Of a DNA stretch of 64,000 nt, positions 11,001-43,806 are shown piece by piece (positions within the stretch are counted from its first letter, which is position 1; every line of letters starts with the position of its first letter). The stretch comes from Bacillota bacterium. Lineage in GTDB: Bacteria; Bacillota; DSM-12270; Thermacetogeniales; Thermacetogeniaceae. Location of the stretch: the NCBI GenBank assembly GCA_013177945.1, contig JABLXW010000016.1, positions 1 through 64,000 of the forward strand. Reading direction: 5' to 3'. Below the pieces are notes generated by a model. It saw only the letters and a program-made list of their open reading frames with translations, ran no database searches and was not told the DNA's origin. The position numbers and the translations under genes were made by a program.

Positions 11001-11555
11001 ATTACGGCCGTGCAGGCTTACCTCCTCCGGGAGGTCCAGCGCGTCTACCGGATGCAGGGGGTTGACATCAATGACAAGCACATTGAGGTCATGATCAGGC
11101 AGATGCTGCGCAAGGTGAAGGTTGAAGATCCGGGCGACACGGAACTCCTGCCCGGGGGCCTGATCGAGGTCTTTGATTTTGAGGAGGAGAACGCCCGGGT
11201 GCTGGCGGTAGGGGGAGAGCCTGCGACGGCAAAACCGGTCATTTTAGGGATTACGAAAGCTTCGCTGGCAACCGAATCCTTCCTTTCCGCGGCTTCCTTC
11301 CAGGAGACCACGAGGGTCTTGACGGAAGCGGCGATTAAGGGGAAGGTGGATCCTCTCCTGGGGCTGAAAGAAAACGTCATCATTGGAAAACTGATTCCGG
11401 CCGGAACCGGGATGTCCCGCTACCGCAACATCAAGGTGCTTGATGAGGAAGAGTTCAAGAAGCCTGGAAAAGAGCCGGAGGAGGTTGAAGAGCGGGTTGT
11501 CTCCGGCGGGGAGCAGGAGGAGCCTGCAGGAGAAGAAGCGGTTGGCCTGAAGTAA
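8025..11555 (+). CDS. rpoC: DNA-directed RNA polymerase subunit beta'
   Basis: Catalytic beta' subunit, 1176 residues. It has the N-terminal zinc site (CHCGKYKR then ICDRCGVEV), the bridge between clamp and active site, and the catalytic NADFDGD motif that binds magnesium. The trigger loop region ([21 protein letters not shown]) and the second zinc site ([13 protein letters not shown]) are present. Length and motifs are normal for Bacillota, with no intein or insertion. The end is acidic, like that of rpoB, though much shorter. ATG 8025 follows AGGGAGTGAGG. Confidence 0.98.
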
Positions 11556-27314: not shown

Positions 27315-28061
27315 ATGATTGTCTTGAAGTCATCACGGGAGATCGCGTACCTGCGCGAGGCAGGACGGATTGCTGCTCTGGCTCTCCAGGAGTTGGGGAA
27401 AAGGGTGAAGCCCGGGGTCACAACATGGGAGCTTAACCAGTTCACGGAGGAATTTTTGCGCCGTGCCGGGGCCTCCCCTGCCTTTCTTGGCTATCATGGC
27501 TTTCCGGCCAGCATCTGCACCTCGGTCAACAACGAAGTGGTGCACGGGATCCCCGGTTTAAGAAAACTGGAAAACGGAGATATTATTAGTATTGACATCG
27601 GGACTGTTTACCGCGATTACTACGGAGATGCTGCCGCAACTTTTCCGGTGGGGGAGATCTCTCCCGAGGCGCGCCGGCTGCTGGAAGTTACCCAAAAGGC
27701 GCTTTTTTTGGGGATCGCCCAGGCGGTGCCGGGGAACCGGGTTGGCGACATTTCTGCCGCCATTCAGAACTACGTGGAAAGCAGCGGATTCCATGTTGTG
27801 AGGGACTTTGTGGGGCATGGGATCGGGCGCAGCATGCACGAGGAGCCCCAGGTGCCCAATTTCGGCAAGCCAGGTCTGGGGCCGCGGCTGCAGCCGGGTC
27901 TTGTGCTGGCAATTGAGCCGATGGTCAATGCGGGAACCTCCGAGGTTTTTGTGCTGCCGGATCGCTGGACCGTTGTTACCAGAGATGGGAGTCTTTCCGC
28001 GCATTTTGAGCATACGGTTCTGGTTACGGAAGGAGAGCCGGAAATCCTCACCCGGCTCTGA
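27315..28061 (+). CDS. map: Methionine aminopeptidase, type I
   Basis: 248 residues. Removes the N-terminal Met from nascent proteins. The dinuclear-metal ligands are in place: DIGTVYRDYYGDAA (two Asp), GHGIGRSMHEEP (His), AIEPM (Glu) and FEHTVLVTE (Glu). Its ATG comes directly after the adk stop, so the two are probably translated together. Confidence 0.96.
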   Translation: MIVLKSSREIAYLREAGRIAALALQELGKRVKPGVTTWELNQFTEEFLRRAGASPAFLGYHGFPASICTSVNNEVVHGIPGLRKLENGDIISIDIGTVYRDYYGDAAATFPVGEISPEARRLLEVTQKALFLGIAQAVPGNRVGDISAAIQNYVESSGFHVVRDFVGHGIGRSMHEEPQVPNFGKPGLGPRLQPGLVLAIEPMVNAGTSEVFVLPDRWTVVTRDGSLSAHFEHTVLVTEGEPEILTRL

Positions 28062-28080
28062 AGGGGGCAGGAGCGGAAGA

Positions 28081-28392
28081 GTGAAGGGAAGTTTAGAAGT
28101 GGGCCAGTTAGTTTGTTCCAAACGCGGCCGCGATCGGGGAAAGTTTTTCCTCGTGGCTGAAGTAATCGACGACTCTTTTGTTTACCTGGTTGATGGAGAG
28201 AAACGCAGGCTGGAAAACCCCAAGCGGAAGAATATTAAGCACCTCGAACCGTTTCCCGTCGTTGCCGAAAACCTGGCAGCGCTGTGGAAAAGTGGCCAGC
28301 AGGTTGGGAATCACGAGGTTCGCAGGATCATCGCCGCTTTACGGCAGGCTCACATCAACAAGGAGTCTGAAAACGAGGGGGTAGATAAATGA
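28081..28392 (+). CDS. KOW-domain RNA-binding protein (ribosomal L14e/L6e-like)
   Basis: 103-residue protein with a KOW motif near the start: [35 protein letters not shown]. Small KOW proteins of this kind sit between map and infA in many Clostridia and resemble eukaryotic/archaeal L14e. The first 65 residues are the conserved part; the rest is a helical, basic tail. GTG 28081 is seven bases after AGGAG. It presumably binds rRNA or the ribosome, but this is inference from the domain and the position. Confidence 0.85.
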
Positions 28393-28393
28393 T

Positions 28394-28618
28394 ATGCCCA
28401 GGTCGAAGCCGAATGTCATCGAAGTTGAAGGTACCGTGGTCGAGGCCCTCCCTAACGCCATGTTCCGGGTAGAATTGGCGAACGGATATAAGGTGCTGGC
28501 ACATGTTTCCGGAAAGATCCGGATGAATTTTATCCGAATTCTGCCTGGCGATCGCGTTACCGTGGAACTTTCACCTTATGACTTGACCCGGGGAAGAATC
28601 GTTTACCGCTTTAAATAG
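28394..28618 (+). CDS. infA: Translation initiation factor IF-1
   Basis: 74 residues, an OB-fold factor that occupies the A site during initiation. [64 protein letters not shown] is canonical apart from a slightly basic start. The ATG is two bases after the KOW-protein stop, whose last codons supply a GGGGG motif. Confidence 0.96.
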
Positions 28619-28655
28619 TCCAGGCAATGATTTGCCGCGGAAGGAGGGGGCTCTG

Positions 28656-28769
28656 TTGAAGGTTCGCGCTTCTGTCAAGCCGATCTGCGAAAAGTGCAAA
28701 GTGATCAGGCGCAAAGGAAAGATTATGATCCTGTGTGAAAACCCGAAACACAAGCAAAAACAGGGGTAG
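28656..28769 (+). CDS. rpmJ: 50S ribosomal protein L36
   Basis: 37 residues, the smallest ribosomal protein. [37 protein letters not shown] has the C-x2-C-x12-C-x4-H zinc set of the standard form. It starts with TTG 28656 after GGAAGGAGGGGGC. It stands between infA and rpsM, its normal place. Confidence 0.95.
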
Positions 28770-28794
28770 AATCTGAGATTTAGGAGGATTGAGG

Positions 28795-29166
28795 ATGGCG
28801 AGAATTGCAGGGGTAGACCTGCCGCGCGACAAGCGGGTGGAAATAGCCCTGACCTACATTTACGGCATCGGCCGGTCAACTGCCAAGCAGATACTCCAGA
28901 AAACGGGAATCGATCCCTCCACCAGGGTTAAAGATCTTACCGAAGAGGAAGTAGGTAAGCTGCAGGAAATCATCGATAAGGAGTACAAGGTGGAAGGGGA
29001 CCTCCGGCGCGAGGTTTCCATGAATATTAAACGCTTGATCGAAATCGGCTGCTACCGGGGCTTGCGCCACCGCCGGGGGCTGCCGGTGCGCGGCCAGCGG
29101 ACGCGCACCAACGCCCGGACACGGAAAGGGCCCCGGAAAACAGTCGGAGTTCGCCGCAAGAAGTAG
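28795..29166 (+). CDS. rpsM: 30S ribosomal protein S13
   Basis: 123 residues. S13 bridges the 30S head to 50S and contacts P-site tRNA through its basic tail. [25 protein letters not shown] and [25 protein letters not shown] are canonical. ATG 28795 is seven bases after AGGAGG. Confidence 0.97.
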
Positions 29167-29184
29167 CAGGAAAGGAGGAAGAAG

Positions 29185-29574
29185 GTGGCAAGGAGAGCGG
29201 GGAGACCAAAACGCAGGGAAAGGAAGAACGTTGAGCACGGCATTGCTCACATCAAATCCACTTTTAACAACACGATCATTACGATTACGGACATGGCAGG
29301 CAACGCGATTGCCTGGGCGAGCGCCGGAACGATGGGATTTAAAGGCACCCGGAAAGGCACTCCCTTTGCAGCCCAGATGGCCGCCGAGGCTGCAGCAAAA
29401 GCGGCGATGGAGCACGGAATGAAGCAGGTCGAGTGCTACGTCAAAGGGCCCGGCGGAGGAAGGGAGGCGGCGATCAGGTCCCTCCAGGCGGCGGGTCTGG
29501 AAGTGAACATGATTAAAGATGTGACTCCAATTCCTCACAACGGCTGTCGTCCGCCGAAACGCCGGCGCGTTTGA
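29185..29574 (+). CDS. rpsK: 30S ribosomal protein S11
   Basis: 129 residues. S11 forms the platform near the E site. [34 protein letters not shown] and [17 protein letters not shown] are standard. It starts with GTG 29185 after GGAAAGGAGGAAGAAG. Confidence 0.97.
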
Positions 29575-29600
29575 TAAAATTCCAAAAGGAGGATCAGATC

Positions 29601-30227
29601 ATGGCAAGATATACAGGTCCGGTATGCCGTCTCTGTCGCCGCGAGGGAATCAAGCTTTACTTAAAGGGAGACCGATGCTACTCGGATAAGTGCGCGCTTG
29701 ACCGGAGGAACTATCCCCCGGGCGAAAAGGCCCAGGCACGGCGAAAGATGACGGAGTACGGGTTGCAGCTCCGGGAAAAGCAGAGGGCGCGGCGGATTTA
29801 CGGGGTTCTCGAGCGGCAGTTCAGACGGTACTTTGAAATTGCAGAACGCCAAAAGGGCATTACCGGTGAAAACCTTCTGCGCCTGCTGGAACGCCGCCTG
29901 GACAACGTGGTTTACCGGCTCGGGTTTGCCGCCTCGCGGGCTGAGGCGCGCCAGCTGGTCCGGCACGGGCATTTCACCGTAAACGGGAGGCGGGTGGATA
30001 TTCCTTCTTACCTGGTGAAGATCGGAGATGTGGTCGCCGTTGCCGAGAGAAGCAGGGAACTGACCCGTTTTGCGGAACTTGCCGAGGCCGCAGCCCATAA
30101 GACTCCTCCTCCCTGGCTGGAAGTGGATGTCGAAAGAATGCAGGGGCGGGTGTTAGGCTTCCCGGCCCGCGAGGATATAGATATCCCCATCAAAGAACAC
30201 CTGATTGTGGAGCTTTACTCACGTTAA
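29601..30227 (+). CDS. rpsD: 30S ribosomal protein S4 (zinc-binding form)
   Basis: 208 residues. S4 starts 30S assembly and often represses its own operon. The N-terminal CRLCRREG then CYSDKC supply four Cys for zinc. The S4 RNA-binding domain [34 protein letters not shown] follows. ATG 29601 has AAAAGGAGGATCAGATC upstream. Confidence 0.97.
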
Positions 30228-30263
30228 AGCATCTGCGTGAAAAGGTGTTGGGGAAGGAGGTTT

Positions 30264-31217
30264 ATGGTGGTGTTGGAGATCGAAAAACCTCGCATCGAAT
30301 GCCTTGAGAAAAACGATGCCGGAACCTATGGCAAATTTGTGATCGAACCGCTTGAGCGCGGTTACGGGACCACCCTGGGGAACAGCCTGCGCCGGGTTCT
30401 CCTCTCTTCCCTGCCTGGAGCGGCTGTCACCTCGGTGAAAATCGAGGGGGTGCTCCACGAGTTCAGCACAATTCCCGGGGTGCGCGAGGATACGACAGAC
30501 ATTATTTTGAATTTAAAGGGTCTTGCCATTAAGATGTACACCGATGAACCCCAGGTTGTCAGGATCGAGGCCCAGGGGGAAAGGGTGGTAAGGGCCTCCG
30601 ACATCATTGCCGGTGCCGAGATTGAAATCATCAATTCCGATCACTACATCGCCACCCTGGAAGCGGACGGCCGCCTCTTTATGGAGATGAACGTGGAGAA
30701 AGGGCGGGGTTACGTCCCTGCGGAGAAAAACAAAAAGGGGGACCAGGTGATCGGAATTATTCCCGTCGATTCCCTTTTTTCCCCGGTTCACAAGGTCAAT
30801 TACACCGTTGAGAACACCCGGGTCGGTCAGGTTACCGACTACGACAGACTTGTCCTGGAGGTCTGGACCAACGGGACGGTGAAGCCGGACGAGGCGATCA
30901 GCATTGCCGCGAAAATTCTCATTGACTACCTGAAGTTATTTGTCGGCCTGACAGAAAAGGGTGAGGAAGGGGAGGCGCCTCCGGAAGAACCGGTTGATGA
31001 AAAAAGAAAGATCCTGGAGATGCCGATTGAGGATCTGGAGCTTTCGGTGCGCTCTTACAACTGCCTGAAAAGGGCGGGCATCAATACCGTGGAGGATTTG
31101 ATCCAGCGCACCGAAGAAGATATGATCAAGGTCCGGAACCTGGGGAAGAAATCTCTCGAGGAAGTCGACCAGAAGCTTGCGGAATTGGGGCTTTCGCTGC
31201 GGAAGGCAGAGGACTGA
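30264..31217 (+). CDS. rpoA: DNA-directed RNA polymerase subunit alpha
   Basis: 317 residues. The N-terminal domain ([27 protein letters not shown]) dimerises and assembles the polymerase. The C-terminal domain ([44 protein letters not shown]) binds UP elements and activators. ATG 30264 lies three bases after GGAGG; GTG codons at 30267 and 30270 have better spacing and may be the true start, a difference of one or two residues. Confidence 0.97.
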
Positions 31218-31232
31218 AAAGAGGTGATTTTT

Positions 31233-31568
31233 GTGTACCGGAAACTGGGTTTTCGAAGCGACCACCGCAAGATGATGCTTCGGAACATCGTGACATCTTT
31301 GCTTCGGGAAGAGCGCATTGAAACAACGGAGCAGCGGGCCAAGGAGTTGAGGCGCCTGGCAGAAAAGATGATCAGCCTGGGAAAACGGGGAGACCTTCAC
31401 GCCAGGCGGCAGGCCCTTGCCTTTCTGCTTGATGAAAGTGTGGTCAAAAAGCTTTTTGAGGAAATCGCTCCCAAATATACGGAGCGCTCCGGGGGGTACA
31501 CCCGCATCCTGAGGCTGGGGAACCGGCGCGGCGACGGCGCCCCGATGGTCCTGGTGGAACTTGTCTGA
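31233..31568 (+). CDS. rplQ: 50S ribosomal protein L17
   Basis: 111 residues. L17 lies near the tunnel exit. It opens [31 protein letters not shown] and ends [17 protein letters not shown], both typical. GTG 31233 is eight bases after GAGGTG. In many Bacillota the ECF transporter genes ecfA1-ecfA2-ecfT lie between rplQ and truA; here truA follows directly. Confidence 0.95.
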
Positions 31569-31572
31569 AAGG

Positions 31573-32382
31573 ATGCGCTACCTGAAGCTGACGCTGGAGT
31601 ATGACGGCACCGGATTCTGCGGTTTCCAAAAGCAGACGGGGACCGGGCTCCGGACCGTCCAGGGGGTTCTGGAGGCTGCGCTTGAAAAGCTGACCGGGGA
31701 GGCGGTCCGCACCTTTGGAGCAGGGCGGACCGATGCCGGGGTTCACGCCCTGGGGCAGGTTGTGCACTTTGCGACGCAGGCGAAGATCCCTGTGGAGCGC
31801 TTTCCGCCTGCTTTAAACAGCATCCTCCCCCCCGATTTGGCTGTAAAAAAGGGGGAAGAGGTTGATTCTGCTTTCCATGCAAGGTATTCTGCCCTTGCCA
31901 AAAAGTATTGCTACCTGATTTTGAACAGGAAGCACCCCTCTCCCGTCTGGCGCAGCCGCTGCTACCGTTTTCCGTACCCCCTGGATGCGGATTTAATGCA
32001 GGAGGGGGCGCGTTACCTGGAAGGCTTCCACGATTTTCGGGCTTTCTCCGCCTCAGGCAGCAACGCGAAAAGCACGAGGAGACACCTTTTTTCTTTCCGG
32101 GTAATCCGGCGCGGAGATTGGGTTTGCCTGGCAGCAACGGCAGACGGGTTTCTTTACAAGATGATGCGTTTGATGGGGGGGACGCTCCTGGAAGTGGGGC
32201 AGGGAAAATTGCCTCCCCGGAGGGTGCAGGAAATTTTGGCCTCAGGCGTGCGGGGGGAGGGGGGTCCTGCTTTGCCTCCCCAGGGACTTTATTTAGTGCG
32301 CGTTTTTTATCCCGGCGATGATTTGAATTTCCGGGAAGAGGATCTTGAAGCAGAGCTTCCTCTGCTTGACGACCTTTCCTGA
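31573..32382 (+). CDS. truA: tRNA pseudouridine(38-40) synthase
   Basis: 269 residues. Makes pseudouridine at positions 38-40 of the anticodon arm of many tRNAs. The catalytic Asp is D54 in FGAGRTDAGVHALGQVVHF. YDGTGFCGFQKQ and the later DGFLYKMMRLMGGTLLEVG are family motifs. ATG 31573 gives the normal N-terminus; a TTG at 31561 in frame overlaps the rplQ end and has slightly better Shine-Dalgarno spacing. Confidence 0.94.
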   Translation: MRYLKLTLEYDGTGFCGFQKQTGTGLRTVQGVLEAALEKLTGEAVRTFGAGRTDAGVHALGQVVHFATQAKIPVERFPPALNSILPPDLAVKKGEEVDSAFHARYSALAKKYCYLILNRKHPSPVWRSRCYRFPYPLDADLMQEGARYLEGFHDFRAFSASGSNAKSTRRHLFSFRVIRRGDWVCLAATADGFLYKMMRLMGGTLLEVGQGKLPPRRVQEILASGVRGEGGPALPPQGLYLVRVFYPGDDLNFREEDLEAELPLLDDLS

Positions 32383-32435
32383 AAAGGGAACAGGCTGCTT
32401 GCAGCAATCTGTTGCCCCGGCTCAGGAGAAGGGTG

Positions 32436-32455
32436 CCGGGGGAGCAAACCCCCGG
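32436..32455 (+). promoter_or_regulatory. Strong hairpin in the rplM leader
   Basis: CCGGGGG (32436-32442) pairs with CCCCCGG (32449-32455) around loop AGCAAA, 54 bp before the rplM start. No T-run follows, so it is not a standard terminator. It may be part of an autoregulatory leader before rplM-rpsI, as occurs in other Bacillota, but I cannot match it to a known leader structure. Confidence 0.4.
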
Positions 32456-32508
32456 TCGGGTTTGACGGAGGAAGCTTGATTCCGGCAGAGGGATGATAGG
32501 AGGGTTTA

Positions 32509-32943
32509 ATGATGCGTACATATATGGCCAAGCCCAGGGAAGTGGAGCGGAAGTGGTACGTGATCGACGCTACCGGGAAGACCCTGGGAAGGCTGGCAAG
32601 TGAAGCAGCGCGGATTTTGCGGGGAAAACACAAACCAATTTTTACGCCCCATATTGATGTGGGGGACCATGTCGTGATTATCAATGCGGAAAAAGTCAGG
32701 CTTACAGGAAAGAAGCTGGAGAAAAAGCTTTACATTTACCACACCCGTTACCCCGGTGGCCTGAAAGTGATGAATTACGAGAAGCTTCTGCGCACCAGGC
32801 CAGAAAGGGCTGTGGAAAGAGCCATTTGGGGGATGATTCCGCACAATCGTTTGGGAAGGAAGATTTTCCGGAAGCTCCGGGTCTACCGCGGGCCGGATCA
32901 TCCCCACGGGGCACAGAAGCCTGAAGTTTGGGAAATTCGCTGA
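32509..32943 (+). CDS. rplM: 50S ribosomal protein L13
   Basis: 144 residues. L13 is an early-assembly 50S protein. [56 protein letters not shown] and [28 protein letters not shown] are typical. Two ATG codons (32509, 32512) follow TAGGAGGGTTTA; the first is used here. Confidence 0.96.
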
Positions 32944-32960
32944 CGGAGGGGGTGAATTTT

Positions 32961-33356
32961 TTGGAGCAGGTACAGTACCAAGGCACCGGAAGGCGCAAAA
33001 CAGCAGTCGCGCGGGTGCGGATCGTTCCCGGGGAAGGGCAGGTTATTGTAAACGGGCGCCCTGCAGAAGATTATTTTCCAAAGCGCACTTCTATCCTGAC
33101 GATAATCAGCCAGCCCCTCGAACTGACCAAAACCGCCGGGCGGTTTAATGTCATTGCTTCGGTGAAGGGCGGCGGGGTAACCGGGCAGGCAGGGGCGATC
33201 AGGCTGGGCCTGGCCCGCGCCCTTTTAAAAGCAGACCCCAGCCTCCGTCCCTATTTGAAAAAGGCCGGTTTCCTGACCAGGGATCCCAGGATGAAGGAGC
33301 GGCGCAAGTACGGGCTGAAGAAGGCCCGGAAGGCTCCTCAATACTCCAAGCGCTAG
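32961..33356 (+). CDS. rpsI: 30S ribosomal protein S9
   Basis: 131 residues. The C-terminal tail of S9 touches P-site t[32 protein letters not shown] and the ending [17 protein letters not shown] are standard. TTG 32961 gives the usual short N-terminus, with GGAGGGGG upstream; GTG 32952 in frame is the alternative. Confidence 0.95.
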
Positions 33357-33417
33357 AACTTCCGCCAGCCCCGCAGCCGGCAGCCCAACTTTCCCTCTCC
33401 GCATGTCTTTGATACGG

Positions 33418-33444
33418 ATAATCGGATTGGCCCGCGCATAACAT
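33418..33444 (+). promoter_or_regulatory. Sigma-E-like sporulation promoter before cwlD
   Basis: ATA (33418-33420), exactly 16 bp, then CATAACAT (33437-33444). This matches the strong positions of the Bacillus sigma-E pattern (ATA-N16-CATAcanT). cwlD is a mother-cell sporulation gene in Bacillus, so the match has functional sense, though a pattern this short can arise by chance. Confidence 0.45.
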
Positions 33445-33480
33445 TTTGGAGAGGATCTCAAAAAAGGGGGAGCTGCTTTC

Positions 33481-34239
33481 TTGCGGGGCTTTATTTTTTT
33501 TAAGACAATAAAGCTGGATCACCGTATCGTTTTTGCTTTTTTACTTCTGGTCTTGCTCGGGGGTTCCCTTCACCCTTATTACGTGAGGTTTAGAGAGCGC
33601 AGGGCCGTCCAGGCTTTATCATGGTCTGTCGCCAACAGGGTGATTGTTGTCGACCCCGGACACGGGGGGGTGGATCCCGGGGCCGTCGGGCGGACCGGGG
33701 TTTTGGAAAAGGATATCAACCTGGCAATCGCAAAGCGCCTTGCCGTACTCCTCACTCAGGCGGGGGCTGCTGTTGTCTTGACCCGGGAGGGGGACTACGA
33801 CCTGAGCGATCCAGAGCACCAGTTCAGCCTCTCTGTAAGGAAGAAGGACGATCTCGAAGCCCGGGTGGAGCTTGCCAATAAGTACCGGGCAGACCTCTAC
33901 ATCAGCGTTCACGTGAACAGCTTCCCTTCCCCCCGGTGGTGGGGCGCCCAGGTCTTCTATTCCCCCCGCAGTCCAGAAAGCAAACGCCTCGCCTGCCTGA
34001 TCCAGCAGGAGCTGATCAAGACTTTAGGGGAAAGCTACAGGTGGGTGAAGCCCGAGGATTTTTATGTGATGCGGAATGTCAAAATGCCTGCAGTGGTGGT
34101 GGAGGCGGGCTTCATTTCCCACCCCCGGGAGGAGATCCTGATGACCGAACCCGTTTACCAGAGCAAGGTTGCCTGGTGCGTTTTTGCAGGTGTTGTCCGC
34201 TATTTTGCCGGCGAGCCTGCCCCGCAATCCCCCTATTAG
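33481..34239 (+). CDS. cwlD: N-acetylmuramoyl-L-alanine amidase CwlD (spore cortex)
   Basis: 252 residues. An Amidase_3 zinc enzyme that, in spore formers, removes the peptide from muramic acid so muramic-delta-lactam can form in the spore cortex. One N-terminal membrane segment (about residues 15-32) exports it. Zinc and catalytic residues appear in VDPGHGGVDPGAVG (His), EKDINLAIAKRL (Glu), DLYISVHVNSF (His) and VVVEAGFISHP (Glu). It starts with TTG 33481 behind GGGGGAG. It closes the ribosomal cluster in many Clostridia, and a sigma-E-like promoter precedes it. Its presence is the clearest sign that this organism sporulates. Confidence 0.9.
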   Translation: MRGFIFFKTIKLDHRIVFAFLLLVLLGGSLHPYYVRFRERRAVQALSWSVANRVIVVDPGHGGVDPGAVGRTGVLEKDINLAIAKRLAVLLTQAGAAVVLTREGDYDLSDPEHQFSLSVRKKDDLEARVELANKYRADLYISVHVNSFPSPRWWGAQVFYSPRSPESKRLACLIQQELIKTLGESYRWVKPEDFYVMRNVKMPAVVVEAGFISHPREEILMTEPVYQSKVAWCVFAGVVRYFAGEPAPQSPY

Positions 34240-34306
34240 GTCCGGAGGCCTCCATCCCTGCTTTCGCTCCGCTGCGTACTCCAGCTCGGATTTGTCTTGC
34301 CTGCAA

Positions 34307-34335
34307 TTGATTTGAAGATCTTTTTGGGATAGAAT
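34307..34335 (+). promoter_or_regulatory. Putative sigma-A promoter of the AmmeMemoRadiSam genes
   Basis: TTGATT (34307-34312), 17-bp spacer, TAGAAT (34330-34335), 74 bp before the next start. Confidence 0.55.
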
Positions 34336-34408
34336 GGAAGCAGCAGAACAGCCCTTCAGGATCAGGTCATTTTGGCCGACTTGTGAGAAATAAGGATGGT
34401 GAAGCAAG

Positions 34409-35752
34409 ATGCTTGTTTTCGCTGGTTTGGCTCCCCACCCCCCGATTATCGTCCCCGAGGTGGGGGGGCCTGAGTTGGAAAAGGCGGCGCAGACTGTGAG
34501 GGGCATGCGGGAGTGGGCGCGCGCTGCAGCCGCGGCCCGGCCCGAGACCCTTGTTTTCATCAGCCCGCACGGCAGCTTCCTGCGGAGCGCGCTGGGGTAT
34601 CTGGGAGGCAGAGATCTTGCAGGAAGCCTTGCCTCCTTTGGGGCGCCGGAGGTAAGCTTCCGGGCCCCCAACGACCTCGAACTCGGCCGCGCCATTGCGG
34701 CCGAGGCGGGAAGGGTGGGGGTTGAGGTTGTGGAGCTGGAGCAGGGGGTACTCGATCTTTACCGGGGCGAGGGTCTTGACCACGGGATCATGGTTCCCCT
34801 CTACTACCTCCGGGAGGCGGGGGTGGATGCTGCGCTGGTGGCCTTCGGAATCAGCCTTTTGCCCTTTGAAAAGCTGTTCCAGTTCGGGCGCGCCCTGGAT
34901 CGGGCGGTGCGGCGCTCGCCCCGGAGGGTCGGGCTGGTTGCCAGCGGGGACCTTTCCCACCGCCTCAAGCGTGGTGCCCCTGCAGGCTACGACCCGCTGG
35001 GGAGGGTTTTTGATGAAGCCGTTCGGGACGCCCTGGCGCGGATGGATACGGAGCGCATCCTGACCCTGCCTGAGGAACTGGTAGAGCGCGCGGGAGAGTG
35101 CGGGCTCAGGCCGATCATTATGCTGCTCGGCGCCCTTCAGGAGTACGAGGTGGAGAGCAAGATCTACTCCTACGAGGGGCCCTTTGGTGTGGGCTACCTG
35201 GTTGCCGGCTTTTCCATCAAAGAGGCGGCGCAGGCCGGGGCGCAGGAGTCTCCCCACGTGCGGCTTGCCCGCGCCAGTCTTGAACACTATCTCCGTACGG
35301 GGAAAATGCTCCCCGTACCGGACCCCGTTCCCCCGGGGATGGAGGGGCGGGCAGGGGTCTTTGTTTCTCTGAAAAAGCACGGCCAGCTGCGGGGGTGCAT
35401 TGGGACAATCGAACCCTATCAGGAAAATATTGCGGCCGAGATCATCCACAACGCCGTCAGTGCCGGAGTCCAGGACCCGCGCTTCTGGCCCGTGACGCTG
35501 GAGGAGCTGCCGGAGCTCAAGATCTCTGTTGATGTCCTTACCCCTCCGGAGCCTGTCGCCTCGGAAAAGGATCTGGATCCCAGGCGGTACGGGGTGATCG
35601 TGAGAAGCCGCGGCCGCACCGGACTCCTCCTTCCCGATCTGGAAGGGATCGACACCGTAGAAGAGCAGATCCGGATCGCCCGCCAGAAGGCCGGAATTCC
35701 CCCTGGAGAGCCTGTGCAGCTGGCGCGCTTTGAAGTAATCAGGTACGAGTGA
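34409..35752 (+). CDS. AmmeMemoRadiSam protein B-A fusion (Memo/LigB-like domain plus AMMECR1 domain)
   Basis: 447 residues with two domains. Residues 1 to about 270 resemble class III extradiol dioxygenases and the related Memo family: FAGLAPHPPIIVPEVGG, ETLVFISPHGSF and GEGLDHGIMVPLYYL give conserved His, and GLVASGDLSHRL another. Residues about 280-447 are an AMMECR1 domain, with GVFVSLKKHGQLRGCIGTIEP, its hallmark. The next gene, 11 bp on, is the matching radical SAM enzyme. The three parts (AMMECR1, Memo, radical SAM) co-occur in many bacteria and archaea; the reaction is not established, and a dioxygenase role in an anaerobe is doubtful. ATG 34409 has AAGGATGGTGAAGCAAG before it. Confidence 0.85.
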   Translation: MLVFAGLAPHPPIIVPEVGGPELEKAAQTVRGMREWARAAAAARPETLVFISPHGSFLRSALGYLGGRDLAGSLASFGAPEVSFRAPNDLELGRAIAAEAGRVGVEVVELEQGVLDLYRGEGLDHGIMVPLYYLREAGVDAALVAFGISLLPFEKLFQFGRALDRAVRRSPRRVGLVASGDLSHRLKRGAPAGYDPLGRVFDEAVRDALARMDTERILTLPEELVERAGECGLRPIIMLLGALQEYEVESKIYSYEGPFGVGYLVAGFSIKEAAQAGAQESPHVRLARASLEHYLRTGKMLPVPDPVPPGMEGRAGVFVSLKKHGQLRGCIGTIEPYQENIAAEIIHNAVSAGVQDPRFWPVTLEELPELKISVDVLTPPEPVASEKDLDPRRYGVIVRSRGRTGLLLPDLEGIDTVEEQIRIARQKAGIPPGEPVQLARFEVIRYE

Positions 35753-35762
35753 GGGAATCAGC

Positions 35763-36758
35763 ATGCAGGAGGCCAGATTTTACGAAAAACTGGAAGGTGG
35801 CCGGGTCTGGTGCCACCTCTGCCCCCAGAGCTGCCGCATCAGCCCGGGCCACGTGGGATTTTGCCGGGCAAGGAAAAACGAGGGAGGAGTTCTTTGCACC
35901 CTGAACTACGGGCGGATTTCCGCCTGGGGGATTGACCCCATTGAGAAGAAGCCCCTCTATCATTTTTATCCGGGCACCCAGATCTTTTCGGTGGGGACCT
36001 TCGGCTGCAACTTTCACTGCGGCTTCTGCCAGAACTGGCAGATTGCCCACGGCGAACCGCTCACCCAGACATGTTCCCCCGCAGAACTGGTGGAAATTGC
36101 ATGCAGGGCAGAGGAGCGATCCGGCTCCATCGGGATCGCCTATACTTATTCGGAACCGATGATCTGGTACGAATACGTCTGCGATGCCGCAAAGCTGGCG
36201 CGGGAAAAGGGCCTCAAAAACGTTCTGGTGACCAACGGTTCGGTGGAGGAGGAGCCGCTGCGGGAGCTTCTTCCCTACGTTGATGCCATGAACATCGATG
36301 TGAAGGCCTTTACCGAGGACTTCTACCGGGAAATCTGCCGCGGCAAGCTCGGCCCGGTGCTGCGCACCGTGGAGATTGCCTACAGCCGGTGCCATGTGGA
36401 GATCACGAACCTGATCGTTCCCACGAAGAACGACGCGGAAGGGGAGATTGCAGCCCTGGTTGACTGGATCGCCTCCCTTGACCCGGCGATTCCCCTCCAC
36501 TTTTCCCGCTACTTCCCTCAGTACAGGTTCAATCTTCCCCCAACGCCTCTGGCAACCCTCAAGAAGGCGCGGGAGATTGCCCTTAAAAAATTAAAGTATG
36601 TTTACATCGGAAATGCCCCGGAGCTGGGGGAAGATGATACCTTCTGTCCGAACTGCCGGAACCTCCTGATCGAGCGGACAGGGTACCGGACCACGGTCAC
36701 AGGGCTGCGGGAGAGGCGCTGCACACAGTGCGGGAGGGAGATTGAAATCGTGAACTGA
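35763..36758 (+). CDS. amrS: AmmeMemoRadiSam system radical SAM enzyme
   Basis: 331 residues. The radical SAM cluster motif is C82-x3-C86-x2-C89 (GTFGCNFHCGFCQNW), of the PflA-like type. An N-terminal Cys cluster (C17, C20, C24, C34, C45) may bind zinc or a second cluster, and a C-terminal zinc-ribbon-like pair (CPNC and CTQC) ends the protein. This layout fits the radical SAM protein of the AmmeMemoRadiSam system. The substrate is unknown. ATG 35763 lies 11 bp after the preceding gene, so the two are cotranscribed. Confidence 0.85.
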   Translation: MQEARFYEKLEGGRVWCHLCPQSCRISPGHVGFCRARKNEGGVLCTLNYGRISAWGIDPIEKKPLYHFYPGTQIFSVGTFGCNFHCGFCQNWQIAHGEPLTQTCSPAELVEIACRAEERSGSIGIAYTYSEPMIWYEYVCDAAKLAREKGLKNVLVTNGSVEEEPLRELLPYVDAMNIDVKAFTEDFYREICRGKLGPVLRTVEIAYSRCHVEITNLIVPTKNDAEGEIAALVDWIASLDPAIPLHFSRYFPQYRFNLPPTPLATLKKAREIALKKLKYVYIGNAPELGEDDTFCPNCRNLLIERTGYRTTVTGLRERRCTQCGREIEIVN

Positions 36759-36779
36759 GTTGGAAATATATTCATGTAC

Positions 36780-36815
36780 CGCCTGGAGAGAGGCCAGGCG
36801 TGTTGTCTTATTCTT
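36780..36815 (+). terminator. Terminator after the radical SAM gene
   Basis: CGCCTGG (36780-36786) pairs with CCAGGCG (36794-36800), followed by a T-rich tract (TGTTGTCTTATTC and more T further on). The T-run is interrupted, so efficiency is uncertain. Confidence 0.5.
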
Positions 36816-36884
36816 ATTCTTTTTGATTTTTTGTGGCATGTCTTTTATTTTTTGTGTTCATCCAGGCTGAGACGAAATTTTCTA

Positions 36885-36913
36885 TTGTATTTTTATGCGT
36901 TGATGTGTATAAT
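36885..36913 (+). promoter_or_regulatory. Promoter of the arginine operon
   Basis: TTGTAT (36885-36890), 17-bp spacer, TATAAT (36908-36913), 93 bp before argC. The region is AT-rich. An ArgR box could overlap the -10 region (TGTATAATCATAA), but the match is too weak to claim. Confidence 0.65.
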
Positions 36914-37005
36914 CATAAGGTGCAGATCATATCCTGTTCCAGGGCAACCTTAAGGCAGGCCGCGGGCTTGCTGCCGCAAAAAAACTTTTAAGGAGAGAGA
37001 GGAAG

Positions 37006-38049
37006 ATGGATTTCAGGGTTGGGATTGTGGGTGCGACCGGATATGTGGGGGAAGAGCTGATCCGGATCCTGTGCCAGCACCCTCAGGTTACGGGAATTGC
37101 TGCTGTTTCCCGGGATTTCCCCGGTTCTTCTCTTGATCGGGTTTTTCCCCATTTGAGGGGCCACGTTGACCTGGAAATTATGGATTTTGAAGAAATTCCA
37201 GCACTCATAGACTTTTCGGATCTCGTCTTTATTGCCCTGCCGCATGGGCTTTCGGCGCCGATCGTCCGGCAGGCCCTCGGCAGGGGAAAGCGGGTTGTCG
37301 ATCTGGCGGCTGACTTCCGGCTTCCCGATCCCTCCCTCTACGAAGCCTGGTATCAGATGCCCCACGGAGCGCCGGAGCTTTTGCGGGAGGCCGTTTACGG
37401 CCTGCCCGAGCTTTTCCGTTCGGCGGTTTGTGCAGCACGCCTGGTGGCCAATCCCGGCTGCTACCCCACCAGCGCCCTTCTTGCCCTCGCGCCCCTTCTG
37501 AAGCACGGCCTGGTAGATCAGACCTCTCTTATTGTCGATGCCAAATCGGGGGTTTCGGGGGCCGGGCGGACCCTTGCCTTGAGCAGCCACTTTTCCGAGT
37601 GCAACGAAAACCTCCGGGCCTACGCGGTTGCCACCCACCGGCACACCCCGGAGATCGTTTGCTATGCTTCGATTCTGGCAGGAGGAAAGGTGGAGGTCAC
37701 CTTTACCCCCCATTTGGTCCCCATGACGCGGGGGATTTTGAGCACCGTTTACGCCACCCTCCTGCGGCCCCTCGACACCTCCTCCCTGTGCCAGATCTTC
37801 CGGGAGTTTTACGCCGGAGAGGCCTTTGTCCAGATTACCGGGGAGGGGGAGTGGCCGCAGACGAAGTGGGTGCAGGGGACGAACAGGTGCTTCCTCGGCC
37901 TCACCGTAAACGGAGGGAGGCGGGTGATCGTGGTTTCGGTGATCGACAACCTGGTGAAAGGCGCCGCGGGGCAGGCAGTGCAGAACATGAACCTGATGTT
38001 TGGTTTCCCGGAAACGGCGGGGCTGGCTGTTCCCGGCCTCTATCCCTGA
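37006..38049 (+). CDS. argC: N-acetyl-gamma-glutamyl-phosphate reductase
   Basis: 347 residues. NADPH-dependent third step of arginine synthesis. Nucleotide binding is at GIVGATGYVGEELIRIL; the catalytic Cys is in VANPGCYPTSALLAL. ATG 37006 follows AAGGAGAGAGAGGAAG. It leads the seven-gene order argCJBDFGH, which covers arginine synthesis from N-acetylglutamate; carAB and argR are not in the window. Confidence 0.95.
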   Translation: MDFRVGIVGATGYVGEELIRILCQHPQVTGIAAVSRDFPGSSLDRVFPHLRGHVDLEIMDFEEIPALIDFSDLVFIALPHGLSAPIVRQALGRGKRVVDLAADFRLPDPSLYEAWYQMPHGAPELLREAVYGLPELFRSAVCAARLVANPGCYPTSALLALAPLLKHGLVDQTSLIVDAKSGVSGAGRTLALSSHFSECNENLRAYAVATHRHTPEIVCYASILAGGKVEVTFTPHLVPMTRGILSTVYATLLRPLDTSSLCQIFREFYAGEAFVQITGEGEWPQTKWVQGTNRCFLGLTVNGGRRVIVVSVIDNLVKGAAGQAVQNMNLMFGFPETAGLAVPGLYP

Positions 38050-38071
38050 TTGCGAGGAGGTTTAGCCCGGA

Positions 38072-39295
38072 ATGATTGGAGAGACAACGAGGTGGGAGGT
38101 TTTACCCGGGGGCGTGACGGCCCCTCAAGGATTTCTGGCCGCCGGGGTTGGGGCTCAGATCCGGAAGAAGGGGCGGCGCGACCTGGCCTTGATCTATTCC
38201 CGGGTGCCGGCTGCGGCGGCGGCCCTTTACACCCAGAACCGGGTGAAGGCAGCTCCGGTTCTGGTGAGCAGGGAGCACCTGGCCGGGGGAGCTGCCCAGG
38301 CGATTGTTGTAAACAGCGGGATCGCCAATGCCTGCACGGGGCCCCGGGGGTATGCCGATGCCCGGCGCATGGCCGCTTTGACCGGGGAGGTGCTGGGTAT
38401 TTCCCCGGAGCTTGTTGTAGTGGCCTCCACCGGAGTGATCGGAGTCCCTCTCCCGATGGAGAAGATCGAGAGGGGGATCCGGGAGGCGGCTTTGAACCTT
38501 TCCCGCGCCGGGGGGAGCGCCGCCGCCGAGGCGATCATGACCACAGATACCTGCCCCAAGGAGTATGCTGTGAAGTTCTGCCTTGGGGGGAGGGAGGTCG
38601 TGCTCGGGGGGATTGCGAAGGGCTCCGGCATGATCCACCCGAATCTCGCTACAATGCTTTCCTTTTTAACAACAGATGCGGCTGTTGCACCGGAGGCGCT
38701 GGCCGCTGCTCTGCGCTGGGCCGGGGCGCGATCCTTCAACGCCGTCACCGTAGACGGAGATACGAGCACCAATGACATGGTTGTTCTGCTGGCCAACGGC
38801 CTGGCCGGAAACGATCTCCTGACCGGTGGAGAAGCCGATTATTTCCTCTTCCGGGAGGCGCTGCTTGCGGTCTGCAGGGAGCTGGCGAAGATGATCGCGC
38901 GCGACGGGGAAGGGGCAACCAAGTTTCTCGAGATCCGGGTGAGAGGGGCAGAGAAGGAAGAGGAGGCCCGGCTGATTGCCCGGGCCGTGGCCGGGTCAAA
39001 TCTGGTGAAGGCGGCCATCTTCGGGGAGGATGCCAACTGGGGCCGGATCATCACCGCAGCCGGAAATGCGGGGGTTCCTTTTGATCCGGAACAGGTGGAT
39101 ATTTACCTGGGGGACCTCCAGGTGGCGGAAAAGGGAGCGGGCCTGGAATTCGATGAGGATGAGGCGCGCGCCATTCTGGAGGCGCGGGAGGTTGTCATCA
39201 CTCTCGACCTGAACCAGGGAACGGCGCAGGGCGTGGCCTGGGGCTGCGATCTCTCTTACGACTACGTCCGGATTAATGCCCATTACCGGACCTAG
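38072..39295 (+). CDS. argJ: Glutamate N-acetyltransferase / amino-acid acetyltransferase
   Basis: 407 residues. ArgJ moves the acetyl group from N-acetylornithine back to glutamate, recycling the acetyl donor. The self-cleavage site lies in [17 protein letters not shown], between Ala and Thr; the Thr becomes the nucleophile of the second chain. Whether it also uses acetyl-CoA (bifunctional form) cannot be read from the sequence; no argA is seen in the window. AGGAGG lies ten bases before the ATG. Confidence 0.94.
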
Positions 39296-39338
39296 TCTGG
39301 ATTTCAACAAACAGGACCTCAAGGGGGAGGAGAACGCG

Positions 39339-40223
39339 TTGATTTTGACTCCGCAGGAAAAGGCCTCGATCCTTGTGGAGGCGCTGCCGTACATCAGGAA
39401 GTTTGCCGGCCAGACCGTTGTCATCAAGTACGGCGGAAGGGTGATGCTGAGCGAGGTGCTGAAGCAGGGGGTGATTACCGACTGCATATTGCTGAAGCTG
39501 GTCGGAATTCACCCGGTCCTGGTGCACGGGGGAGGCTCGGCCATTGACGCCATGCTCCGGCGCCTGGGCAAGGAGTGGAACTTCGTGCGGGGCCAGCGGG
39601 TGACCGATGAGGAAACAATGGAAATCGTCGAAATGGTACTGGTCGGGAAGGTGAACAAGGAGATTGTGGCCCTCATCAACAAGCTGGGCGGAAAAGGGAT
39701 CGGGCTCTCCGGAAAAGACGGGAATCTTCTGGAGGCCCGGAAGAAGGTTCTGGCCGGGGCGCCGGGGGAGGAGCCCGTTGATTTGGGATATGTGGGGGAA
39801 ATCACCCGGGTGAATCCCGAGATCATCGAAACTGTGAAGAGCGAGGGGTATATCCCGGTGGTGGCCCCCATTGGGGTAGGAGAAAACGGGGAGAGTTACA
39901 ACATCAATGCCGACTACGTTGCTGGAGAACTGGCGGCGGCCCTGGGCGCGAACAAACTGGTGCTCCTCACCGATGTAGAGGGGATTCTGGCCGACCGGGC
40001 GGACCCGAAAAGCCTCCTTTCCGTCGTCAGGGTGAGCGAGGTTCCGGAGCTGATCAAACGGGGTGTAATTGCGGGAGGAATGATTCCTAAAGTTGAGTGC
40101 TGCGTCCAGGCGCTCCAGAAAGGGGTCGGCCGCACCCACATCATCGACGGGCGGATTCTCCACTCCATCCTGCTGGAGGTTTTTACCGACGAAGGAGTGG
40201 GGACGATGGTGGTGAGGGAATAG
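39339..40223 (+). CDS. argB: Acetylglutamate kinase
   Basis: 294 residues. Phosphorylates N-acetylglutamate, usually the step inhibited by arginine. The Gly-rich site [15 protein letters not shown], the [13 protein letters not shown] region and [14 protein letters not shown] are typical. The usual KYGGNAM motif reads KYGGRVM here. I chose TTG 39339 because AAGGGGGAGG stands eight bases before it and the product then begins [19 protein letters not shown] as in clostridial ArgB. An ATG at 39276 overlapping argJ would add 21 residues with no homology. Confidence 0.93.
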
Positions 40224-40254
40224 CGGTGAAAGCATCGAGGGGGGAAGGAGGAAA

Positions 40255-41484
40255 ATGGCGCAGGAAGTGGTGGAGCTTGGCCGGCGGTATCTCATGGAAA
40301 CATATGCCCGGCTCCCCCTCGTCCTTGTGAAGGGTGAAGGGGCGCGGGTCTGGGACGCGGAAGGGAAATGTTATCTCGATTTTGTGGGCGGGCTGGCGGT
40401 TAATTCTGTCGGCCACTGCCACCCGCAGGTTGTTGCGGCGATAAAGGAGCAGGCGGGGCGGCTGCTTCACTGCTCCAATTTGTACTGGTTTCGCCCCACT
40501 GTGGATCTTGCCCGGGAGCTTGCGGATTTGAGCGGCCTGGACCGGGTCTTTTTCTGCAACAGCGGAGCCGAGGCGAACGAGGCGGCGATCAAGCTCGTGC
40601 GAAAGTTCGGTCACCTGCAGGGAAAGGAGCGCCCCGAAATCATCTCCTTTACCGGATCCTTTCACGGGAGGACGCTGGGGGCTTTGGCGGCTACGGGCCA
40701 GGAAAAGTTCTGGGAGGGTTTTGCTCCCCTCCCGCCGGGCTTCCGCCACCTTCCCTTCAACGACCCGCGGGCGCTCCAGAATGCCGTGAATTCCCAGACC
40801 GTTGCGGTCTTTGTGGAGCCGGTCCAGGGGGAGGGAGGGGTTCACGTTGCCAGTCCGGAGTTTATGGAGAGCCTGGCGGAGGCCCGGGGGCGCCGCGGGG
40901 TGCTCCTGGTTTTCGACGAGGTCCAGTGCGGCCTGGGCCGGACGGGAAAGATGTTTGCCTTCGAGCACTACGGGGTCCGGCCGGACGTCCTGGTGCTCGC
41001 CAAGGCGCTGGGGGGCGGTTTGCCCATCGGGGCCGTCCTGGCGCGGGAGGAGGTGGCGGCCGCCTTCCGGCCGGGGAGCCACGGCTCCACCTTTGGGGGA
41101 AACCCCGTCGCCTGCGCCGCGGCGCGGGCCGTTTTGAGCGTCCTGAGGGAGGAGGGTCTGGTTGCCAATGCAGAGCGGGTGGGGAGCTACTTCAAGGCCC
41201 GGCTTGAAGAACTTGCCCGGCGTTTTTCCTTGATCCGGGAGGTGCGCGGGCTCGGTCTGATGCTGGGGATGGAGCTGGACCGGCCGGGGCAGGGGCTGGT
41301 GGCCCGCTGCCAGGAGCGGGGCCTCCTGGTCAACTGTACGGCGGAGCGTGTCATCCGCTTCTTGCCCCCGCTTTCCATCGGGAAGGAAGAGGTTGACGAA
41401 GCGGTGGCTGTCCTGGAGGAGGCCCTCGCGGAATTTGGCGGGGAAAAGTTGACGGGAGAGGAAGGAGAATGTCACAGGTTGTGA
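40255..41484 (+). CDS. argD: Acetylornithine aminotransferase
   Basis: 409 residues. Class III PLP aminotransferase that makes N-acetylornithine. The PLP lysine is in DVLVLAKALGGGLPIGAVL; FCNSGAEANEAAIKLVRK and FDEVQCGLGRTGK are family motifs. ATG 40255 follows GGGGAAGGAGGAAA. It may also serve lysine synthesis as succinyldiaminopimelate aminotransferase, as ArgD does elsewhere. Confidence 0.94.
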   Translation: MAQEVVELGRRYLMETYARLPLVLVKGEGARVWDAEGKCYLDFVGGLAVNSVGHCHPQVVAAIKEQAGRLLHCSNLYWFRPTVDLARELADLSGLDRVFFCNSGAEANEAAIKLVRKFGHLQGKERPEIISFTGSFHGRTLGALAATGQEKFWEGFAPLPPGFRHLPFNDPRALQNAVNSQTVAVFVEPVQGEGGVHVASPEFMESLAEARGRRGVLLVFDEVQCGLGRTGKMFAFEHYGVRPDVLVLAKALGGGLPIGAVLAREEVAAAFRPGSHGSTFGGNPVACAAARAVLSVLREEGLVANAERVGSYFKARLEELARRFSLIREVRGLGLMLGMELDRPGQGLVARCQERGLLVNCTAERVIRFLPPLSIGKEEVDEAVAVLEEALAEFGGEKLTGEEGECHRL

Positions 41485-41547
41485 GCGCCTGCAACCGGGA
41501 GCGCTCTTGCCTTTTTAAAAAATCAAAGTGAGAAGGGGAGAGGAAAA

Positions 41548-42495
41548 ATGGCTGCCGCTTACCTGGACACAAGGTTGAAAGGGCGGGACTTTTTGACCAT
41601 CACTGATTTCAGCAGCGAGGAGATCAGGCTCTTTCTCGACGCCGCCCATGAACTGAAAAAGGAGCTGAAGGGAGGGATTCCCCATCCCGTTCTGAAGGGA
41701 AAGGCGCTGGGGATGATCTTCCACAAGCCCTCCACCCGGACGCGTGTCTCCTTCGAGGTGGGGATGTACCAGCTGGGGGGCTACCCTCTGTTTTTGAGCG
41801 CCCAGGAGCTTCAGCTCCGCCGGGGGGAGTCCATCGGGGACACCGCCCGCACCCTTTCCCGCTACCTGGACGGGATCATGATCCGCACCTTTGCCCAGGC
41901 GGATGTTGAGGAGCTGGCCCGCTATGCTTCCATCCCGGTGATCAACGGCCTGACCGACCTGGTGCACCCCACCCAGGCCCTGGCAGACATCATGACCGTC
42001 GAGGAGCACAAAGGGAGGCTGCAGGGGCTGAAGCTTGCCTTCATCGGGGACGGGAACAACGTGGCCCACTCCCTGCTCCAGATCTGCGCGAAGGTTGGAA
42101 TCAACATGGTGGTTGCCTGCCCGCCCGGGTACGAACCAAACCCCGAGATCGTGGCAGGGGCTCTTGCAGATGCCGCAGAGACCGGGGCCGCCCTCGAAAT
42201 CATGGAGGACCCCGTTGCTGCCGTCCGGGGGGCAGATGTGGTTTACACCGACATCTGGGCGAGCATGGGGCAGGAGGCGGAGCAGGAGGAGCGCAAAAAG
42301 GTTTTTGCCCGCTATCAGGTGAACAGCGAACTGCTCCGGCACGCCGCCCCGGATGTGATCGTGCTCCACTGCCTCCCTGCCCACCGGGGTGAGGAGATTA
42401 CCGATGAGGTGATGGACGGCCCCCATTCTGTGGTCTTTGATGAGGCGGAGAACCGCCTCCACATGCACAAGGCGATCATGGCCCTGCTGATGTAA
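41548..42495 (+). CDS. argF: Ornithine carbamoyltransferase
   Basis: 315 residues. Makes citrulline from ornithine and carbamoyl phosphate. Carbamoyl phosphate binding is at [15 protein letters not shown]; the ornithine site and catalytic Cys lie in [16 protein letters not shown] 41548 follows AGAAGGGGAGAGGAAAA. The alternative catabolic role is unlikely in a biosynthetic cluster without arcA or arcC. Confidence 0.95.
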
Positions 42496-42511
42496 AAAAG
42501 GAGGAAGAGCG

Positions 42512-43726
42512 GTGGAAGTAAAAAAAGTTGTGCTGGCCTATTCCGGCGGTCTTGATACATCGGTGGCGATCCCCTGGCTCAAGGAAAACTTCGGGTGCGA
42601 GGTCATCTGCTTTGCGGCCGACCTGGGGCAGGAGGAGGAGCTTGAAGGCCTTGAGGAGCGGGCGCTCCGGGCCGGAGCCAGCAAGGTTTACATCAAAGAT
42701 TTAAAGCGGGAGTTTGTGGAGGACTTCATCTTCCCCACTTTGAAGGCGGGCGCCCTTTACGAAGGGAAGTATCTGCTGGGGACCTCCTTTGCCCGCCCTC
42801 TGATCGCCAGGCACCTGGTGGAGATCGCCGGGGAGGAGGGAGCCGACGCTGTTGCCCACGGGGCGACGGGAAAGGGAAACGACCAGGTGCGCTTCGAGGT
42901 CGCGGTCCAGGCCCTGAACCCGGATCTCAAGGTGATCGCCCCCTGGCGCCTCTGGGAGATTAAGTCCCGGGAGGATGCCATCGCCTATGCCGCAGCGCGG
43001 GGGATCGAGGTGCCTGTAGCCAGGGAGCGGCCCTACAGCATGGACCGGAACATCTGGCACCTGAGCCACGAAGGGGCAGACCTGGAGGATCCCGCCCAGG
43101 AGCCCCCCGGTGATCTCTATTTACTGATCACACCTCCGGAGCAGGCCCCCGACCGGCCCACCTATGTGGAGATCGGGTTTGTCCAGGGGGTGCCCCGCAC
43201 CCTCAACGGAAAAGAGTACGACCCGGTATCCCTTGTCCAGACCCTGAACAAGATCGCGGGAGAGAACGGGGTGGGCATCATCGACCTTGTGGAAAACCGC
43301 CTGGTGGGGATGAAGTCCCGGGGCGTCTACGAGTGCCCCGGGGGGACGGTTTTGTTCCTCGCCCACCGGGAGCTGGAGCACCTCACCCTCGACCGGAACA
43401 CCATGCATTTTAAGGAACTTGTTGCCCTGCGCTACGCAGAGCTGGTCTACGATGGGCTCTGGTATTCCCCCCTGCGGGAGGCTTTGAGCGCCTTTGTTGA
43501 CGAAACCCAGAAAACCGTCACCGGGACGGTGCGGATGAAGCTTTACAAGGGAAACTGCACCCCTGCGGGAGCGCGTTCTCCCTATTCCCTCTACCACGAG
43601 GGGTTCGCCACCTTCGGCCACTTTGAGCTTTACGACCACAAGGACGCCCAGGGGTTCATCAATTTGTTCGGCCTCCCCCTGAAGGTCCGCGCCCTGATGC
43701 GCCAAAGGGCTGGCTCGCCTTTATGA
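42512..43726 (+). CDS. argG: Argininosuccinate synthase
   Basis: 404 residues. ATP-dependent joining of citrulline and aspartate. The PP-loop is [15 protein letters not shown] at residues 9-23; [13 protein letters not shown] follows. It starts with GTG 42512 behind AAAGGAGGAAGAGCG, 16 bp after argF. Confidence 0.95.
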
Positions 43727-43806
43727 GAGGGGCGCCGGGTGCTTGAGCGCGCCCGGCCCCGGCAGCTGCAAAACTCGCTCAATACAATAAAAGAGGAGGG
43801 AGCAAC

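Follow-up and report, generated by a model that had tools for sequence, protein, structure and literature searches.

A LigB-AMMECR1 fusion gene and its radical SAM neighbor: evidence for a LigB-type AmmeMemoRadiSam unit

Two adjacent genes in a 64,000-nucleotide stretch of Bacillota DNA (here called the window) raise the question of whether a protein with a LigB fold and an AMMECR1 domain, together with the radical SAM enzyme encoded behind it, forms one functional unit, and what chemistry such a unit might carry out. A preliminary description had placed a LigB-AMMECR1 fusion and a radical SAM gene here, and this was borne out, PF02900 and PF01871 both matching within one frame and TIGR04337 matching the gene that follows. 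The pair and the signals around it are as follows.

34307..34335, + strand: promoter-like TTGATT-17-TAGAAT, 5' of the pair (by consensus match only; the region has 2, against an expected 0.9)
34409..35752, + strand: B-A fusion gene, LigB-fold and AMMECR1 domains; ATG at 34409 to TGA at 35752, 447 aa; model pLDDT 92.8
35763..36758, + strand: amrS, AmmeMemoRadiSam radical SAM enzyme (TIGR04337); ATG at 35763 to TGA at 36758, 331 aa
36780..36800, + strand: terminator-like hairpin, 3' of amrS (by consensus match only; the region has 3, against an expected 4.8)

The genes lie on the same strand with a gap of 10 bases, and by eye a purine-rich ribosome-binding stretch lies 5' of each. The promoter-like site and the hairpin are consistent with a single transcript, although as consensus matches they are of weak value. 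A search of Rfam over 28000-44000 found no riboswitch or other RNA near the pair. NCBIfam models gave truA, rplM, rpsI, and cwlD upstream and argC, argJ, argB, and argD downstream, in agreement with the earlier placement of the pair between cwlD and arginine genes. Shortly 3' of rplM-rpsI, at the end of a ribosomal gene cluster, the unit occupies a chromosomal slot that recurs in several families, seen in the window at 32509-36758 (NCBIfam) and at L076-L078 and L085 (by gene lengths and order).

The A and S parts could be assigned to their families from the following features.

35219..35257, + strand: interdomain linker, residues 271-283; residues 274-277 with pLDDT below 50
35258..35746, + strand: A domain, AMMECR1, residues 284-446 (PF01871, 1.1e-47; TIGR04335); LRGCIGT at 327-333
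35811..35864, + strand: N-terminal C17-x2-C20-x3-C24-x9-C34 of AmrS, possible auxiliary metal or FeS site; invariant in 22 sequences, 42/43
36006..36029, + strand: radical SAM cluster motif C82-x3-C86-x2-C89 of AmrS; invariant in 22 sequences, 42/43
36636..36755, + strand: C-terminal Cys-rich ribbon of AmrS; weak PF02150 match

The A domain scored 132.6 bits with TIGR04335, over the cut-off of 99, and its best fold match was PH0010 (1vaj, TMt 0.75). The LRGCIGT motif is kept in 50/50 fusions, and a human AMMECR1 mutation falls within it (PMC5502304). Pfam found no glycyl-radical domain in AMMECR1. AmrS scored 335.9 bits with TIGR04337 (cut-off 220), the only protein of its genome over that cut-off, and matched the radical SAM model PF04055 with 72.4 versus 29.5 bits. 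Its structural model (pLDDT 95.1, pTM 0.92) is closest to PFL-activating enzymes (TMt 0.79-0.81, the latter for 3c8f), followed by viperin, TYW1, and QueE. Unlike PFL-activating enzyme, AmrS has the N-terminal four-Cys motif and the C-terminal ribbon, and it stays below the glycyl-radical activase models (58.7 versus 231.75 bits for TIGR02493 and 55.1 versus 250.2 bits for TIGR04041). The ribbon is missing from AmrS versions of about 275 aa in Lachnospiraceae and relatives (many gut Clostridia); as far as these sequences tell, it is dispensable. In genome G048 there are two further radical SAM genes that match TIGR04337, both next to the gene for a protein of 821-873 residues (L080, 7159-8355 with 8310-10775; L081, 7412-8482 with 8625-11246); the L080 neighbor is spermidine-synthase-like, with an MFS/SpdSyn match. 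These pairs are a second context for the TIGR04337 radical SAM family.

The identity of the B part required more care, as the features predicted for it show.

34409..35218, + strand: B domain, residues 1-270, LigB/extradiol-dioxygenase fold (PF02900, 6e-46)
34436..34438, + strand: His10, predicted metal ligand; invariant in a 34-sequence alignment, 49/50 fusions, the remaining one a gap
34568..34570, + strand: His54, predicted metal ligand; invariant in the 34-sequence alignment
34958..34960, + strand: His184 of a DxSH motif, predicted active-site residue; 50/50 fusions
35096..35101, + strand: Glu230-Cys231, candidate third metal ligand; Cys231 in 50/50, Glu230 in 49/50

The PF02900 (LigB) match covers residues 8-265 with 157.1 bits against a cut-off of 26.3. 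The same domain scored 21.4 bits with TIGR04336 (AmmeMemoRadiSam B), under the cut-off of 26, and Pfam Memo (PF01875) matched neither the B-A protein nor anything else in its genome. A separate Memo protein as the real B of this genome was therefore rejected, the genome being without any. Of the two similarities proposed earlier, that to AMMECR1 held, while that to Memo stayed short of the family level, with PF01875 silent and TIGR04336 below threshold. The nearest solved folds were TK2203 (5hee, TMt 0.86), HpaD (8iq8, 0.79), and MEMO1 (3bcz, 0.54-0.62). The sequence is HpaD-like (49 bits to TIGR02298), and the domain scores far under every cut-off of the dioxygenase equivalog models. By sequence, then, the B domain is of the LigB branch, and the name Memo is valid for it only at the superfamily level. 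Because certain relatives of the fused domain exceed the Memo or TIGR04336 cut-offs (33.7-37.9 bits with TIGR04336, over part of the model), we place the fused family between the LigB and Memo branches. Because relatives pass TIGR04336 and a LigB-type B replaces Memo, we file the unit as a LigB-B form and not as a canonical three-family member.

Seven residues, His10, His54, Asp181, Ser183, His184, Cys231, and Gly232, are invariant over the 50 fusions, one partial sequence having gaps at His10 and His54. In MEMO1 the iron ligands are H49, H81, and C244, with the Cys at the place of the dioxygenase Glu, and no dioxygenase activity was seen with the substrates tried (PMC11081632). Profile comparison aligned Cys231 to the Cys of true Memo proteins. 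The position is Asp in TK2203 (alignment) and in a Holophagaceae B protein (L116, by eye); the counterpart of Glu230 is Pro in TK2203 and Gln in L043, and in an alignment to HpaD the ligand-type Glu pairs with Glu230 without a gap. The alignments make residue 231 the preferred candidate for the third ligand, although Glu230 is nearly as conserved. The fused LigB-type B domains thus likely carry a predicted metal signature of the Memo type, H-H-Cys (H10/H54/C231). TK2203 of Thermococcus, a putative LigB-like protein and the best structural match, differs from the B domain in being single-domain, in addition to its Asp. Human MEMO1 shares the superfamily and likely the same H-H-Cys site, but its structural match to the B domain is low (TMt 0.54-0.62).

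Strong Memo genes of the phylum do not sit with AMMECR1 or amrS, and the one tested was well over the TIGR04336 cut-off. At 15 of 16 loci, two of them congeneric, a strong Memo gene lies directly 3' of a gene for a bacterial alpha-2-macroglobulin of about 1,610-1,740 residues (L069-L075, L107-L109, L111, L112, and L118-L120; the exception is L110). These Memo proteins have N-terminal signal-peptide or lipoprotein-like stretches, and the papers searched did not report a Memo that is exported and partnered with a protease trap. By eye, those at L057-L068 have LDSP or LDAP where MEMO1 has its iron-holding Cys, which suggests a His-His-Asp site.

We then asked how general the fusion is. Of 53 loci taken from other genomes, 49 have it, 32 of these with amrS adjacent, and they span Clostridia, Selenomonadaceae, Synergistota, Collinsella, a Dehalococcoidia bin, and a Desulfovibrio bin. 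In a set of 300 genomes from the phylum, the open frames that hold the listed AMMECR1 matches mostly run to about 450-500 codons. Given both observations, the B-A frame is no chance joining or assembly error. The preliminary description had the families condensed here into two adjacent genes; the adjacency stands, but the rarity this implied does not, the fusion being the usual form in the phylum. No plasmid record covered 80% of the LigB fusion. The structural model of the fusion is confident (pLDDT 92.8) except at a floppy linker (274-277), and with a pTM of 0.67 it does not fix how the two domains sit relative to each other, which counts against reading a shared active site from it.

Among the 300 genomes, 230 had AMMECR1, 229 had TIGR04337 at a threshold of 1e-35, 226 had both, and 67 had neither. 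The radical SAM enzyme is thus present in 226/230 AMMECR1-positive genomes, and the co-occurrence that had been put forward as a test of the pairing was found. Neither the counts nor the Fisher test on them is corrected for kinship, so that the Fisher value is not a true probability; the figures by genus are 159 and 156 of 210. All four genomes with AMMECR1 and no TIGR04337 match at 1e-35 (G021, G162, G183, and G227) have the LigB-AMMECR1 fusion, and G183 and G227 each carry two. The three genomes with TIGR04337 only belong to one genus, and their matches are below the cut-off. Where both positions were among the matches listed (120 genomes), A and S were adjacent in 112. When the AMMECR1 gene had no amrS next to it (16 genomes), amrS was mostly still present at another place (13 genomes), indicating that the partnership is independent of linkage; at least one case of A and S on different contigs probably reflects a broken contig (G133, where each gene lies at the end of a contig). 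In control genomes, A was found without S in Haloferax and Memo without S in Thermus, which, together with the four fusion genomes lacking amrS, indicates that B-A can act on its own. Clustering of the neighbors at the 53 loci revealed no second conserved partner, the fusion and amrS being the only widespread families, and the earlier view of a free-standing module gained from this. The other clusters were set aside as opposite-strand shadow ORFs, ABC transporters, or common local gene order.

The arrangement of the three parts varies in ways that bear on their relationship. Five loci (L076, L077, L078, L079, and L086) have the unit split into three neighboring genes, in the order B, A, S. In a Holophagaceae genome (L116, L050) a LigB-type B lies directly 5' of amrS with A elsewhere, and in a Chlorobiota genome (L113) Memo lies directly 3' of amrS. 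Over eight genomes the LigB-type and Memo-type B were mutually exclusive, five having the LigB type without Memo and the three without the LigB type having Memo. Plasmids of Ideonella dechloratans (Pseudomonadota) and Segatella hominis (Bacteroidota) encode a Memo-AMMECR1 fusion followed by amrS. This is the order of the window, but the B domains are true Memo proteins (231-255 bits to TIGR04336), and their A domains group apart in a divergent clade of their own, whereas the A domains of fused and split LigB-type units interleave (small tree, modest support). B-A fusion or fission has probably occurred more than once, as judged from these sequences. In a fold search, three giant-virus proteins of BFVD (A0A5B8IQW3, A0A3G5A0Z1, and A0A481YR83) aligned with the fusion model along some 500 columns, taking in both domains, which suggests, at the level of models, that giant viruses have a B-A fusion too. 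Two of the three are named Memo-like or AMMECR1.

Overall, we identify the two genes with high confidence as a LigB-B-type AmmeMemoRadiSam unit (amrB-A, amrS). It shares with the known system (TIGR04335 for A, TIGR04336 for B, TIGR04337 for S; amrA/amrB/amrS) an A and an S over their cut-offs and adjacent, a partner of the B fold, and the order of the split operons, and it differs in its LigB-branch B (21.4 versus 26 bits). The three-family system and its name already stand in NCBI curated models, and "recently-described Memo-Ammecr1 systems" are cited by PMC7159879. What is added here is the quantified co-retention, the exchange of LigB and Memo B proteins, the occurrence of a B-A fusion in parallel for both B types, and the reading of the LigB-type site as H-H-Cys; part of this may already be in print.

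As to function, the reading that we favor, with a probability of roughly 0.55, is a LigB-B-type AmmeMemoRadiSam unit with O2-independent chemistry on a shared substrate. B and A would form a single working protein with a common substrate: B would be a metalloprotein of the extradiol-dioxygenase fold with the predicted Memo-like H10/H54/C231 site, A would bind or present the substrate through AMMECR1 with its invariant LRGCIGT loop, and AmrS, PFL-activase-like, would perform a radical step on that substrate, coupled to a redox or cleavage step at the B metal that does not use O2. A single substrate for all three parts is a good bet in itself. The same had been argued from the fusion, and the argument is strengthened, short of proof, by the split B-A-S operons, the B-S pairs, the unlinked copies retained together, and the Memo-AMMECR1 fusion with its amrS. 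Against the favored reading stand the occurrences of A and of Memo without S, the fusions without amrS, and the unfixed geometry between the domains. The assignment of the individual steps to B, A, and AmrS is tentative and may well need revision. B probably does not use O2, on account of the anaerobe bias of AMMECR1, the top-weighted anaerobe marker in a survey table (3.38% of aerobes, 50.66% of anaerobes; PMC13386939), and of the lack of dioxygenase activity in MEMO1. A dedicated peptide is a less likely substrate than a small molecule or nucleobase, because precursor genes do not recur next to the unit.

The chief rival makes AmrS the activase of B-A: it would modify AMMECR1 covalently or place a radical on it, the RGCIGT loop being one candidate site, and the activated B-A would be the working enzyme. 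AmrS does have the PFL-activating enzyme fold as its closest (3c8f, TMt 0.81) and glycyl-radical activases as its closest sequences after its own family; no other widely recurring neighbor family could serve as a glycyl-radical partner, AMMECR1 offers an invariant Gly/Cys loop, and AmrS is almost never seen without A. However, AMMECR1 lacks a glycyl-radical domain by Pfam, A occurs without S in Haloferax and in the four genomes of the phylum, and at L116 it is B that adjoins S, without A there. We regard this rival as unlikely. Related to it, and a good deal more doubtful, is the idea that B is a functional Memo replacement, a dioxygenase scaffold with a Memo-type His-His-Cys site working independently of O2, while AMMECR1 would be radical or covalently activated by AmrS. 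Were B instead an ordinary O2-dependent extradiol dioxygenase that opens the ring of an aromatic compound, AMMECR1 having an accessory role, the PF02900 match, the likeness to HpaD in sequence and fold (TIGR02298, 49 bits; 8iq8, TMt 0.79), and the ungapped alignment of Glu230 would be accounted for, but not the invariant Cys231, the marking of anaerobes by AMMECR1 (PMC13386939), the scores far under every dioxygenase equivalog cut-off, or the want of any other widely recurring gene family nearby, and we consider this very improbable.

A more specific version of the shared-substrate reading, in which the substrate is a prenyl group or another isoprenoid, draws on polyprenyl diphosphate synthase-like genes (motifs by eye) that adjoin A in a Nitrospirae bin (L047, 7023-7997) and the fusion in Anaerovibrio (L014, 11470-12441) and lie 3 kb off in L006. 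A 2019 comparative study reportedly tied Memo contexts to isoprenoid and nucleobase modification. These are only three loci in two lineages, and with this the synthase was dropped as a partner of the unit; we hold the isoprenoid version to be rather improbable. Least probable of all is that B-A and amrS are neighbors through inherited gene order alone and do separate jobs. The slot 3' of rplM-rpsI does itself recur (in the window and, by gene lengths, at L076-L078 and L085), but the pairs persist at other sites, unlinked, split, and with a different B family.

The human relatives MEMO1 and AMMECR1 are linked to cancer spread and developmental disorder. To our knowledge, neither has a known chemistry, and we know of no radical SAM partner for MEMO1 in humans. 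If the Memo-replacement reading were true, human MEMO1 and AMMECR1 would descend from a two-part enzyme that has lost its radical SAM activator. The exchange of LigB-type and Memo-type B within one A-S partnership, and the fusion of both to AMMECR1, narrow the search to chemistry that is possible for both B folds, and the compact two-gene form, with its high-confidence two-domain model and its thermophile relatives, offers a practical handle on the reaction.
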